From Arthrobacter sp. MYb213 (GTDB lineage Bacteria; Actinomycetota; Actinomycetes; Actinomycetales; Micrococcaceae), in contig NZ_PCQA01000003.1 in the NCBI RefSeq assembly GCF_002979915.1, positions 186,001-250,000 of the forward strand: a stretch of 64,000 nucleotides of DNA. Direction: 5' to 3'. Made by a program: the position numbers and the translations under genes. Below the pieces are notes generated by a model that was not told the DNA's origin, ran no database searches, and was given only the letters and a program-made list of their open reading frames with translations. This document shows, piece after piece, positions 46,047 through 49,062 of the stretch (positions are counted from its first letter, which is position 1; each line of letters starts with the position of its first letter).

Positions 46047-46155
46047 TTAACGAAAATTCCCCGTCGGTAAACCGACGGGGAATTTCACGATCATCACTCG
46101 CACCTTCAATGAGGTAATTACTACTCTAAGCGTGAATGCTGTGCAGTAACTTTGG
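46047..46155 (-). repeat. Structured intergenic repeat, copy A (candidate small RNA)
   Basis: Read on the minus strand: a -10-like TAGAGT, a core with ACCTC-N4-AAGGT and GCGAGTGATGATCGTG, then a 14-base GC-rich stem (arms at 46054-46067 and 46072-46085) followed by TTTTCGTT. The order core, hairpin, U-tract is that of a short RNA with an intrinsic terminator. It matches copy B at 102 of 109 positions; four of the seven differences are two compensated base pairs in the stem. Confidence 0.8.
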
Positions 46156-46224
46156 GTGAACCCGGCATTTGATGAGGGTTACGGTTTTTCGCTGGCCTTA
46201 TGAAACTGCCTGGGAGTCTTTGGT

Positions 46225-46333
46225 TTAACGAAAACTCCCCGCCGGTAAACCGGCGGGGAGTTTCACGATCATCACTCGCACCTTCAATGAGGTAATTACT
46301 ACTCTAAGCGTGCTTGCTGTGCAGGAACTTTGG
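46225..46333 (-). repeat. Structured intergenic repeat, copy B (candidate small RNA)
   Basis: Same layout and orientation as copy A. The stem arms AAACTCCCCGCCGG and CCGGCGGGGAGTTT differ from copy A by two T-to-C changes matched by two A-to-G changes, preserving pairing. It lies 22 bases downstream of the thiC stop on the thiC strand, so it also serves as the thiC terminator. Confidence 0.8.
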
Positions 46334-46355
46334 TTCGGCTTCGCGTTCGCCGGTG

Positions 46356-48098
46356 CTAGTTTGAGTCGGGCCCGACGGGGATCTTGTCCCCGACGTAAAC
46401 CTTGCCACCACTTTCGAGGAACTGCTTGCTCTTCTGCGCCATTCCGGCCAAGGCAGCTTGAGCCTCGGCCGACCCGTACTCATCACGGATGTCTTGGGAG
46501 ATCCGCATAGAACAGAATTTCGGGCCACACATCGAACAGAAGTGAGCGGTCTTTGCCGGTTCTGCGGGCAACGTTTCGTCGTGGAACTCCTGCGCGGTGA
46601 CCGGATCTAGGGACAGCGCAAACTGATCATTCCAACGGAACTCGAAGCGTGCTTTGCTCAGGGCGTTGTCTCTGTCGATTGCGCCGGGGTGACCCTTGGC
46701 TAGATCCGCTGCATGAGCAGCGATCTTGTAGGTAATTACTCCGGTCTTCACATCATCGCGGTTGGGTAGCCCCAGGTGCTCCTTGGGAGTCACATAGCAG
46801 AGCATTGCCGTGCCGTAACGAGCGATTTCGGTGGCGCCGATGGCGCTGGTGATGTGGTCGTAACCCGGTGCAATATCCGTGACCAGAGGACCCAGCGTAT
46901 AAAACGGTGCACCGTCACACAGCTCCTGTTGGCGTTCCACATTTTCGCGCACCAAATGAAAGGGGATATGCCCGGGCCCCTCAACCATGACCTGAACATC
47001 GTATTTCCAAGCCCGCTTGGTCAGCTCGGCTAAGGTGTCTAACTCGGCAAATTGCGCCGCATCATTGGCGTCCGCGATAGATCCCGGGCGCAGCCCATCA
47101 CCTAGGGAGAAGGCCACATCGTAACGAGCAAAGATCTCACACAGCTCATCAAAGTTGGTGTAAAGGAAATTCTCTTGATGGTGTGCCAGACACCAGCCGG
47201 CCATAATTGACCCACCGCGCGAAACCATTCCGGTGACACGGTTGGCGGTCAGCGGGATATAGCGCAGTAAGACCCCGGCATGAATGGTCATATAGTCCAC
47301 GCCCTGCTCACATTGCTCAATGACGGTGTCTCGGAAGATCTCCCAGGTTAGTTCGTTGGCTTCGCCGTTGACCTTTTCTAATGCTTGGTAGATTGGCACG
47401 GTGCCGATGGGCACCGGGGAATTGCGGATGATCCATTCGCGGGTGGTGTGAATGTCATCCCCAGTGGAAAGATCCATCACCGTGTCAGCACCCCACTTGG
47501 TGGCCCACTGGAGTTTAGAGACTTCCTCGGAAATTGAACTGGTGACCGCCGAGTTGCCAATGTTCGCGTTGATTTTGACCAAAAACGCCTTGCCGATGAT
47601 CATCGGTTCGGATTCTGGGTGGTTGATATTTGAGGGAATGATGGCGCGGCCAGCGGCTAGCTCGCTGCGCACTAATTCGACATCGCAGTCCTCGCGCAAA
47701 GCTACGTAGCGCATCTCGTCGGTGATAAGCCCCCGGCGCGCGTAATGCATTTGGGTGACCCTGGAACCGGGGTGCGAACGCAGAGGTGGCGCGGATCTGC
47801 CGGCCCACTCGGAGCTCGCCGTGCCGCGTCGGACCGCAGACTTTCCATCATCGTGCAGATTGCGCTCACGTCCCGCATAATCTTCGACATCCCCGCGCGC
47901 CAGAATCCACGATTCTCGGAATGGTTTAAGCCCTAAGTTAGCTTCACTTCCTGGGCCGCTGGTGCGATACACCGTCAGCGGTTCGTTTGGTTGGCCATTA
48001 GGAGAATCTGCCAACTTGATCTGCGTGACGGGGACCGAGATTCCGGCGGACTCGCGGTAGGCAAGGGTGTGGGCAGGGTGCTGTTCAAATTGTTCCAC
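46356..48098 (-). CDS. thiC: Phosphomethylpyrimidine synthase
   Basis: A 580-residue radical-SAM enzyme that turns aminoimidazole ribotide into the HMP-phosphate pyrimidine of thiamine. The C-terminal iron-sulfur motif '[11 protein letters not shown]' (CxxCx4C) is present, as are '[20 protein letters not shown]', '[13 protein letters not shown]', '[14 protein letters not shown]' and '[17 protein letters not shown]'. Starts with GTG at 48098. A TPP riboswitch lies immediately upstream, giving feedback by thiamine pyrophosphate. It stands alone without other thi genes nearby. Confidence 0.97.
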
Positions 48099-48107
48099 TG
48101 TGGGAAA

Positions 48108-48198
48108 CTCACTTCCTTCGCCGGCATTACCCGGACAGGTTCAACGGTCGCGGACGGCAATAGTCCGGTCTCAGCCCCTGCCGGGGCACCCGTGTGGT
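48108..48198 (-). promoter_or_regulatory. TPP riboswitch of thiC
   Basis: On the minus strand the THI-box elements appear in order: GGGTGCCCCGGCAGGGGCTG, AGACCGGACTATTGCCGTCC, then TTGAACCTGTCCGGGTAATG and CCGGCGAAGGAAGTGAG. These match the conserved CUGAGA, ACCUG and GGAUAAUG-type core that binds thiamine pyrophosphate. It ends about 10 bases before the thiC start, so control is probably by hiding the ribosome site. Confidence 0.95.
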
Positions 48199-48267
48199 CA
48201 GAAATAACGTACCACGTCAGACACGTTGAGGAAGCAACTCGGAAAATGAAAGTCGTTCTTGGTGGAA

Positions 48268-48372
48268 GGAAAAAGGTGGTGCCGTCATAGGACGGCACCA
48301 CCTTTTAGATCATCACTCGCACCTTCAAGAGGTACTTAATACACTAAAGTTCGAAGCTATGCCTGAGCTTGG
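48268..48372 (-). repeat. Structured intergenic repeat, copy C (candidate small RNA)
   Basis: Minus strand: -10-like TAGTGT, core ACCTCTTGAAGGTGCGAGTG, then a 15-base stem (48272-48286 with 48291-48305) followed by TTTTTCC. It lies upstream of the thiC riboswitch and is not downstream of any minus-strand gene, so it cannot simply be another gene's terminator. The core is conserved while the stem sequence is completely different from copies A and B. Confidence 0.78.
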
Positions 48373-48460
48373 TTTCCCGTCAATAGCGCCTCAGAAAACT
48401 AGCGAAACAATACATTAGGGGCTTGGCAAAGTGGCCTGCAGGCTGGGCTATATATAGCGA

Positions 48461-48475
48461 ATATGTATCATGCAT
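48461..48475. promoter_or_regulatory. Possible MarR site upstream of marR
   Basis: ATATGTATCATGCAT lies 45 bases before the MarR gene, next to TATATATA. It shares ATGTATC with the palindrome at the exporter promoter (minus-strand reading of 50569-50605). Autoregulation is plausible but the match is short. Confidence 0.3.
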
Positions 48476-48519
48476 GCTGAGGGTAGGATGGATGGAGCGT
48501 CAGCAGTCTAAGGGGAGAA

Positions 48520-48957
48520 ATGAAGCGCCGTATTGCCGATATCGAATATGAGCAGCTGATGCTCAGTCGCTACACCATTGCCAACCAACGGCAGGCTGGC
48601 GGACTGGATCGAAGCGTCTATCTGTTGATGAGCCGTATCGACGGACAAGGCCCGATGAGCATCGCGGAGCTTAGCCACGCATTACGCTTAGATGCCTCCA
48701 CCCTGCAACGCCAAGTGACCAGCGCAATTAAGGATGGTTATCTAGAGCGGATTGTTGACCCGGAGGGACACCTGGCTCGGAAGATCACGTTGACCTCTGA
48801 CGGCGAGCAGCGAATGAACGAAGCCCGAAAAGTCTCCACGGACGCGCTGGAACACATCATGGAAGATTGGTCTGCGTCGGATATCGATTCGTTCGCGAAT
48901 CTTCTGCACCGCTTTAATCTGTCGATCGAAGAATATAGCGAATCAAAACGAGCTTAA
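48520..48957 (+). CDS. MarR family transcriptional regulator
   Basis: A 145-residue winged-helix regulator. The DNA-binding part is at about residues 30-95: 'LDRSVYLLMSRIDGQGPMSI', 'LSHALRLDASTLQRQVTSAI' and the wing 'VDPEGHLARKITLTSDGEQR' (D-x-R/G-wing typical of MarR). Helices at both ends form the dimer interface. ATG 48520 follows AAGGGGAGAA. It converges on an MFS multidrug exporter gene, and related palindromic sequences lie at both promoters, so it probably represses the exporter and itself. Confidence 0.9.
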   Translation: MKRRIADIEYEQLMLSRYTIANQRQAGGLDRSVYLLMSRIDGQGPMSIAELSHALRLDASTLQRQVTSAIKDGYLERIVDPEGHLARKITLTSDGEQRMNEARKVSTDALEHIMEDWSASDIDSFANLLHRFNLSIEEYSESKRA

Positions 48958-49062
48958 AGAAGAACTCCCGTTGGGCAATATCCAACGGGAGTTCTTACGA
49001 TCATCACTCGCACCTTCAAGGAGGTAGTTACTACATTATCGATACTTCCTATGCCAGTGCTG
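48955..49062 (-). repeat. Structured intergenic repeat, copy D (candidate small RNA)
   Basis: Minus strand: -10-like TAATGT, GTAG-TAA-CTAC mini-hairpin, core ACCTCCTTGAAGGTGCGAGT, then a 15-base stem (48960-48974 with 48982-48996) followed by TTCTTT. It lies between the convergent MarR and MFS genes, 41 bases after the MFS stop. Its ACCTCC matches the 16S rRNA anti-Shine-Dalgarno core. Confidence 0.78.

Follow-up and report, generated by a model that had tools for sequence, protein, structure and literature searches.

GcvB, a single-copy small RNA (sRNA) of the enterobacteria, uses a G/U-rich unpaired seed against CA-rich sites in transporter mRNAs. To our knowledge, seed, regulator and target set have been defined for few actinobacterial sRNAs. 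6C RNA (RF01066) is an actinobacterial RNA with C-rich hairpin loops. AbcR1 and AbcR2 of the alphaproteobacteria are reported to be homologous sibling trans-acting sRNAs that act mostly on mRNAs for transport and metabolism (PMC8844928), and LhrC1-5 of Listeria is reported to be a multicopy sRNA dependent on the two-component system LisRK (PMC4132741, PMC5880928). In M. tuberculosis the non-coding RNA Mcr7 is reported to lie at the most prominent PhoP site (PMC4038636). Here we describe a family of repeats in Arthrobacter sp. MYb213 that bears comparison with each of these. Four of them are found in the window, i.e. the whole 64,000-nt stretch of DNA that was analysed.

A preliminary description of this DNA had reported four repeats around thiC, and repeat and motif searches found all four in place. 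The direct repeats at 46047-46155 and 46225-46333 (copies A and B) are 94% identical across 109 nt in a self-comparison of the window, and further copies lie near 48268 (copy C) and 48955 (copy D). The 21-mer TTGAAGGTGCGAGTGATGATC has four matches in the window with up to three mismatches allowed, all exact and all on the minus strand, against none in 100 shuffles. Read on that strand, each copy has in order a -10 box, a few nucleotides, a 5′ hairpin containing ACCU, TTGAAGGTGCGAGTGATGATC, a perfect hairpin of 15-16 bp and a T-rich tail. The terminator stems are 100% complementary in all four copies; A and B differ at two base pairs, both compensated (read from the aligned repeats), as had been claimed. 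Each of the four folds better than shuffled sequences on either strand, with z of -4.4 to -7.0 for the minus and -6.1 to -6.7 for the plus strand; fold energy alone therefore leaves the strand undecided. We regard it as near certain that the window repeats are genes for a multicopy sRNA, read from the minus strand. Our preferred reading, to which we give a probability of about 0.58, is that they belong to a response regulator-driven family of sibling sRNAs that would lower nutrient uptake in the manner of AbcR and GcvB.

Four is the number for the window; the genome has seven copies, of which two more contain the exact 15-mer AAGGTGCGAGTGATGA and one, on another contig, is divergent. The exact 15-mer is present in 46 of 100 Micrococcaceae genomes. 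With reversed sequence as control it gave one match in the same search, and a related 19-mer (up to three mismatches) gave two in the own genome. A sequence-only family model built from 69 copies matches 139 of 149 Micrococcaceae genomes, in 31 of 32 genera, with one to nine matches per genome; genus g11 has six to nine copies per genome. The genomes without the family are all seven of genus g6 and three of genus g3, further genomes of which carry it. In a sample of the order 22 of 297 genomes match, and in one of the class 2 of 197, every one of them from the Micrococcaceae; two more Micrococcaceae members listed in the order sample have no match. Among the best 80 of 114 stretches in a scan of named genomes, 79 bear the names of what we take to be Micrococcaceae genera. 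One listed stretch, labelled Vibrio cholerae strain 35D (L203, 2171-2192), holds a proC-linked copy with Micrococcaceae-like neighbours; since the contig has the same proC-linked locus as is described below, this is presumably contamination of the assembly.

No Rfam 15 family reaches its gathering score over the window elements, the TPP riboswitch of thiC being the only match in the window, and weak matches that overlap the elements fall far under their gathering scores; nor was any Rfam match to the elements seen in 20 family loci scanned. No published description of the RNA family was found in the literature (open-access PMC only). The conservation of the family supports the earlier proposal of a multicopy, minus-strand sRNA with promoter, core and terminator. 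The preliminary description held that relatives keeping the hairpin and not the core would speak against it; in other genera the core itself is conserved. Several apparently independent genes thus share a common core, each with its own predicted promoter and terminator, as in sibling sRNAs.

Features were counted in 131 copies, i.e. 139 less eight second tandem units. Alignment A2 has 69 rows, 21 of 90 representative copies having been left out, and L203 was left out of alignment A4. Positions 1-13 of the 15-mer are invariant or nearly so across the 131 copies, and the flanks vary; because the copies were retrieved via the 15-mer with few mismatches, its conservation partly reflects hit selection. 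In seven of the 131 copies the core is tandemly duplicated, placing two potential seeds in one RNA (L019, L021, L036, L077 twice, L078 and L080).

RNAalifold pairs YACCU with AGGUG as a stem, H1, in which ACCU is the 5′ arm and the nearly invariant AGGU the 3′ arm. At least four contiguous pairs form in 125 of 131 copies, against a mean of 45.7 and a maximum of 61 when the upstream 16 nt are shuffled. Variation in H1 is one-sided and G-U compatible (U-G 47 and C-G 19 at one pair, A-U 63 and G-U 4 at another, in 69 rows), which agrees with a minus-strand RNA. A small GTAG/CTAC stem had been offered as evidence for the strand; it is complete in 13 of the 69 rows, against 63 for YACCU/AGGUG, and was rejected. 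ACCU is paired in the minimum-energy folds of three of the four window copies, copy D preferring other pairs.

ACCUCC in the core had also been read as an anti-Shine-Dalgarno (anti-SD) motif. Among the window copies it is exact in copy D alone; across the family, A is the commonest base to follow ACCUC, and CUCC shows no conservation. No accessible, conserved CCUCC of the kind expected in an anti-SD sRNA was found in the window copies. Given this lack of conservation and the pairing of ACCU in H1, the arm of a hairpin is the best account of ACCU, and we reject the anti-SD reading of ACCUCC as the main mechanism for the window copies. A short open reading frame (ORF) beginning at GUG or AUG in the core was also rejected; several copies inspected by eye have no conserved frame or stop, and that of copy C would end after ATG ATC TAA. 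GUACC...AAGGUGCG may show some likeness to helix 45 of 16S rRNA.

Of the 131 copies, 121 have a contiguous stem of at least nine pairs downstream of the core; shuffled sequences and upstream regions have one in only 2 of 131 cases each. With bulges allowed the count failed to separate real copies (131 of 131) from shuffled ones (114 of 131), and it was replaced by the contiguous one. In 30 proC-linked copies two-sided changes occur at 11 of 12 terminator pairs. The loops of hairpins of at least seven pairs contain CCCC or CCUCC in 75 of 131 copies and GGGG or GGAGG in none; CCUCC itself is found in the loops of seven. By inspection the loops of the window copies (UUUA, UUUA, CUAU and AUAUUGC) have no C runs, and that of the seventh own-genome copy holds UUACCUCCUUGA; such reading of individual copies by eye covered part of the set.

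A gene of proC type (by eye) lies 59-191 nt from a copy on the opposite strand in 33 loci; these come from several genera, and some share a genome. On the other side there are TIM-barrel-like genes in 19 loci and Ppx/GppA-like genes in 20. Many proC-linked copies have three hairpins, i.e. H1, a short second hairpin and a long terminator with a UUUCCCCCAA-like loop; the window copies have H1, the core and a simple terminator and nothing more. The proC-linked locus may be regarded as ancestral. In three loci of a single genus (L346, L348 and L350, around 1501) the loop of the second hairpin holds AUGGGGAU and that of the terminator has a C run before AU, and these two loops could kiss each other.

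Promoters were aligned on TAnnnT, which is absent from 3 of the 131 copies; removal of 18 near-duplicates from the other 128 left 110 diverse copies. In these, CAG peaks at -46, -35, -24 and -13 from the T of the -10 box, with some adjoining bases also favoured. There are 73 CAG-CAG pairs at a lag of 11 and 23 at a lag of 22, and 0-7 at every other lag between 5 and 25. No -35 box was seen in the aligned promoters. This architecture of 11-bp CAG repeats is solid and, like the seed and target signal discussed below, is new relative to the preliminary description. A study of M. tuberculosis PhoP reports that the protein binds TCACAGC-N4-TCACAGC as a tandem dimer, with higher affinity where there are three or four repeats, and that other regulators of its class use other heptamers in a similar pattern (PMC4832192). 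The 110 family promoters have TCACAGC-like direct repeats, spaced by 11 bp, upstream of the promoter, as would be expected for a regulator of the OmpR/PhoB family.

Of 10 own-genome matches to the OmpR-type DNA-binding domain, two, the regulators C10:20883 and C9:355503, are closest to PhoP among solved structures, scoring 291.9 (3r0j) and 221.3 bits against 180.6 and 169.4 for PrrA. The better of them adjoins an ORF that by eye resembles a histidine kinase, and its SIVESYISY is aligned to NVVESYVSY of PhoP. It is likely that a PhoP-like response regulator drives the copies. A matrix including the -10 box, trained without Glutamicibacter, places six of the seven own copies in the top eight matches over 1.97 Mb; copy D lies outside the best 28, and the best shuffled score of 19.3 tops three of the six ranked copies. 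Two other high-scoring sites, C8:133555 and C7:624146, were considered as further members of the regulon and rejected, as by eye they look like ordinary upstream regions.

Candidate targets were sought upstream of 1314 of 1707 script-called ORFs in the 1.97 Mb of the own genome, those with at least 30 nt of non-coding sequence. Some words complementary to the core are enriched there. ACTCGCA occurs 15 times against a composition-class mean of 3.9 (rank 1 of 420), TCATCAC 10 times (rank 1 of 210), TCATCACT five times (rank 1 of 560) and CATCAC 36 times (rank 1 of 60). For the 13-mer GTGCGAGTGATGA, the strongest of three module lengths tried, complementary 7-mers are found in 43 of the 1314 regions; shuffled modules give 20.6 (s.d. 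6.9) and none of 400 reaches 43, while reversed GTGCGAGTGATGA gives 22 regions and the antisense 16. The N-terminus is hydrophobic or carries a lipobox in 16 of the 43 genes (shuffled 3.8), and a lipobox is present in 8 (shuffled 1.1), numbers that were reached by none of 400 shuffles in either case. When the contigs are divided into halves the counts go in the same direction, being 20 against 7.7 (0/400) and 23 against 12.7 (12/400), with 7 against 1.2 (0/400) and 9 against 2.5 (1/400) for the gene class. Of the 60 nt examined, the stretch 21-50 nt ahead of the start codon holds most site starts, and the last 20 nt hold few.

Ten of 15 listed targets, chosen for their envelope-like look and with long proteins taken to 400 residues, were compared with Pfam; they matched Peripla_BP_2, SBP_bac_3, Peripla_BP_4 (twice), SBP_bac_5, CitMHS, SSF, CstA and Metallophos, with one unmatched. 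It is plausible that the targets are envelope and lipoprotein genes for uptake. A complementary 7-mer is present in 12 of 20 orthologous upstream regions (shuffled 0.66), the 20 being taken from 134 matches outside the own genome and picked because the counterpart has a site. One predicted target, C8:528024, was excluded from this comparison, as its site seems to fall in the end of the coding sequence of an upstream gene. Pairing is stronger in the CstA orthologues (named by eye and Pfam; L557 and L558) than in the own gene, at -17.6 and -20.6 against -11.9 kcal/mol, and FecB2 orthologues (by eye) hold their pairing despite several changes (-18.0 and -19.7 kcal/mol); CitMHS and UshA-like orthologues (by eye) pair more weakly than the own genes. 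Upstream of C7:667091, the gene for the SSF symporter, a second copy of the complement lies within the inverted repeat GTGGTGACTCGCACCAC; of two relatives read (L555, L556), one retains it.

We propose that the elements are independent genes, each for a trans-acting sRNA of ~70-80 nt, with seven siblings in the genome. A signal would pass through a sensor kinase to a PhoP-like regulator. This regulator, of the OmpR/PhoB family and most likely PhoP-like, would be recruited by the tandem 11-bp CAG repeats that replace the -35 box, and transcription would begin just upstream of H1. The almost invariant GUGCGAGUGAUGA would be exposed in and beyond the 3′ side of H1, and the RNA would be ended by an intrinsic terminator, the stem of which appears to drift freely. 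GUGCGAGUGAUGA is predicted to pair with CA-rich UCAUCACUCGCAC-like sites ~20-60 nt ahead of the start codon in mRNAs that encode envelope proteins, solute-binding lipoproteins and symporters among them, lowering the translation or stability of these mRNAs. The control is probably repression, by analogy with AbcR1/2 (PMC8844928). We infer both the reality and the sign of this control, the enrichment of complementarity having been computed in one genome.

A number of results weigh against this reading. H1 has no two-sided covariation in the 69 rows, and its outer G-C pair is formed in just 31 of them. Of the promoter repeats in the window copies, the two proximal ones alone are clear and the distal ones are degenerate. 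A four-repeat matrix that omits the -10 box has one copy among its best 28 matches, and with it shuffled sequence scores as high as 19.7, real sequence no higher than 17.5; no high-scoring repeats were found around the own response-regulator genes, the surroundings of which score low. Several core-complementary words are unenriched (e.g. ATCACTC, 3 occurrences, rank 80 of 210), and 27 of the 43 genes do not look like the envelope class, which was noticed post hoc in the same genome that tests it; the choice of proteins for the Pfam comparison belongs here too. Other module lengths are weaker, a 16-mer giving 52 genes against 27.3 (5/400) and a second 13-mer 37 against 19.7 (4/400). Random 16-mers drawn from upstream regions give 34.3 genes (s.d. 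10.5) to be set against the 52, and 5.9 of the class (s.d. 2.7) against 17, so that the plain count becomes less striking and the gene class more so.

Evidence from outside the own genome also belongs on this side. In other genera 29 of 981 starts have a site against 18.1 for shuffled modules, a number reached by 42 of 400, and the class numbers 3 against 2.0 (132/400). Identity in the 20 orthologues is 82% at the sites and 78% in the flanks, and since the sites are barely above the flanks, shared descent may explain them. Duplex energies of the whole module do not reach significance; at -12 kcal/mol the count is reached by 14 of 60 shuffles. A strict ACTCGCA-SD-ATG pattern occurs in 63 of 100 genomes, including three of four of the genus without the family; it does not separate the genera and is therefore uninformative.

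The RNAs might instead be anti-SD sRNAs, in which ACCUC(C) near the 5′ end and the C-rich terminator loops pair with ribosome-binding sites; ACCUC and the loops, and not GCGAGUGAU, would then be the pairing part, and the conserved 13-mer would merely stabilise H1 or bind a chaperone. The one-sided C bias of the loops in 75 of 131 copies accords with this, some loops contain UUACCUCCUUGA or UUUCACCUCCUUAG, and AbcR1/2 silence transport mRNAs via anti-SD motifs (PMC8844928). However, ACCU is paired in most window folds, the window loops lack C runs, CUCC is not conserved, and the invariant GUGCGAGUGAU would be unneeded for SD pairing. We consider this explanation unlikely. The 15-mer could also be the site of an RNA-binding protein, which the sibling RNAs would titrate or by which they would be stabilised, i.e. 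a CsrB-like sponge or a chaperone tag. Strong conservation over 13-15 nt would suit a protein site, as would the tandem duplication of the 15-mer and the S4-domain-like protein (by eye) that neighbours copies in seven loci; yet it leaves the own-genome enrichment of complementary sites before a coherent gene class unexplained, and we judge it quite improbable.

Lying at about +10 to +25 of the predicted start, the 15-mer might be a DNA operator, with hairpins that merely terminate short transcripts. We find this very hard to reconcile with an H1 that varies by G-U changes valid on one strand and in the length of its loop, with C-rich loops on one strand only, and with a stem of at least nine pairs in 121 of 131 copies. 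A mobile element of REP or MITE type with an incidental terminator would account for several copies close together and for one to nine per genome, and deserves almost no credence given the copy adjoining proC in 33 loci of several genera, the unrelated terminator stems and the conserved promoter architecture. A phage origin was likewise rejected. The 15-mer is found in 91 stretches of viral contigs; none has the upstream CCTC-like element, which also tells against a mobile element, and these matches are therefore taken as chance.

Within the window, all features of the putative sRNA genes are on the minus strand. The predicted sRNA of copy A occupies 46047-46118, its 5′ end being placed from the -10 box TAGAGT at 46123-46128. 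The family profile locates two proximal promoter repeats at 46137-46154 (CACAGCA 46137-46143, CAAAGTT 46148-46154). Folding and the family alignment place H1, of the YACCU/AGGUG type, at 46100-46116. The conserved 13-mer GTGCGAGTGATGA, a candidate seed from motif conservation and the target analysis, is at 46091-46103, and a terminator hairpin of 15 bp followed by a T-rich tail is at 46054-46085 by stem complementarity and folding. In the other copies the sRNA was delimited by repeat comparison and folding, the promoter by alignment, the 15-mer by motif search and the terminator by complementarity. Copy B (predicted sRNA 46225-46296) has TAGAGT at 46301-46306, the repeats CACAGCA and CAAAGTT at 46315-46332, the 15-mer at 46270-46284 and the terminator hairpin at 46232-46263. 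In copy C (48264-48335) these are TAGTGT at 48341-48346, CATAGCT and CCAAGCT at 48355-48372, the 15-mer at 48311-48325, and a hairpin of 16 bp with T tail at 48271-48306. The corresponding elements of copy D (48953-49028) are TAATGT at 49033-49038, CATAGGA and CTCAGCA at 49047-49064, the 15-mer at 49002-49016 and the hairpin at 48960-48996.

Copies A and B lie just downstream of thiC. The TPP riboswitch of that gene is at 48096-48203 on the minus strand (64.5 bits); copies C and D are beyond it, C being upstream of thiC and D between MarR-like and transporter-like genes (ORFs named by eye). Elsewhere in the own genome, a copy is ~1-2 kb from a periplasmic-binding-protein-like gene, C8:290895, itself a predicted target (L005/L068 and L006/L069 on C8), and another copy on C8 is ~500 nt from a glycine riboswitch. 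The small protein resembling an S4-domain RNA-binding protein recurs beside copies at L137 and six other loci, and just inside the coding start of an own-genome protein that begins alike (C7:624595) there is a site complementary to the core.

The C-rich loops of the proC-linked type recall those of 6C RNA. Two 6C-type hairpins with C-run loops are present in many proC-linked relatives and, by inspection, absent from the four window copies. Membership in 6C RNA is rejected, as there is no RF01066 covariance match at the gathering score in the window, the own genome or 20 of 37 family loci, and the core is absent from 6C loci; the family core or 5′ module was found in 0 of 30 of these, and in none of 12 further by inspection. 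The repeats belong to none of the RNA families tested. 6C occurs in 7 of 100 Micrococcaceae genomes (4 above cut-off), and in just two of the 32 genera, g6 (4 of 4) and g11 (3 of 4). Genus g6 is the sole one without the new family, and g11 has both. This is the pattern that replacement of 6C by the new family would give, seen in two genera only.

More broadly, and tentatively, the Micrococcaceae may have a PhoP-type system with a main output of one to nine sibling sRNAs that share a G/U-rich seed and shut off nutrient uptake; it would be a counterpart of GcvB and AbcR, presumably Hfq-free, that has replaced 6C. We regard this as possible rather than probable. The family provides seed, regulator and targets as testable predictions, and is present in 139 of the 149 genomes sampled. 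Because it ranges from one to nine copies, it lends itself to work on how copy number expands, how seeds are duplicated and how 6C was apparently displaced. If the proposal is true, it ties a PhoP-type regulator of environmental bacteria to RNA control of uptake.

The family thus has partial likenesses to several described sRNAs. LhrC, likewise multicopy and dependent on a two-component system as is proposed here, differs from it in sequence and seed, and unlike the Micrococcaceae its host is a firmicute. GcvB would resemble it in its G/U-rich seed and CA-rich sites, and differs in being single copy, in sequence and in regulator. AbcR1 and AbcR2 are similar in being siblings, would be so in being directed at transport functions, and are set apart by anti-SD motifs at the ribosome-binding site (PMC8844928), whereas here the candidate seed is G/U-rich and its sites are mostly upstream of the SD sequence. 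Mcr7 differs in being one gene, predicted to be confined to the M. tuberculosis complex (PMC4038636). The link from PhoP to Mcr7 is the nearest precedent for the regulator proposed here.

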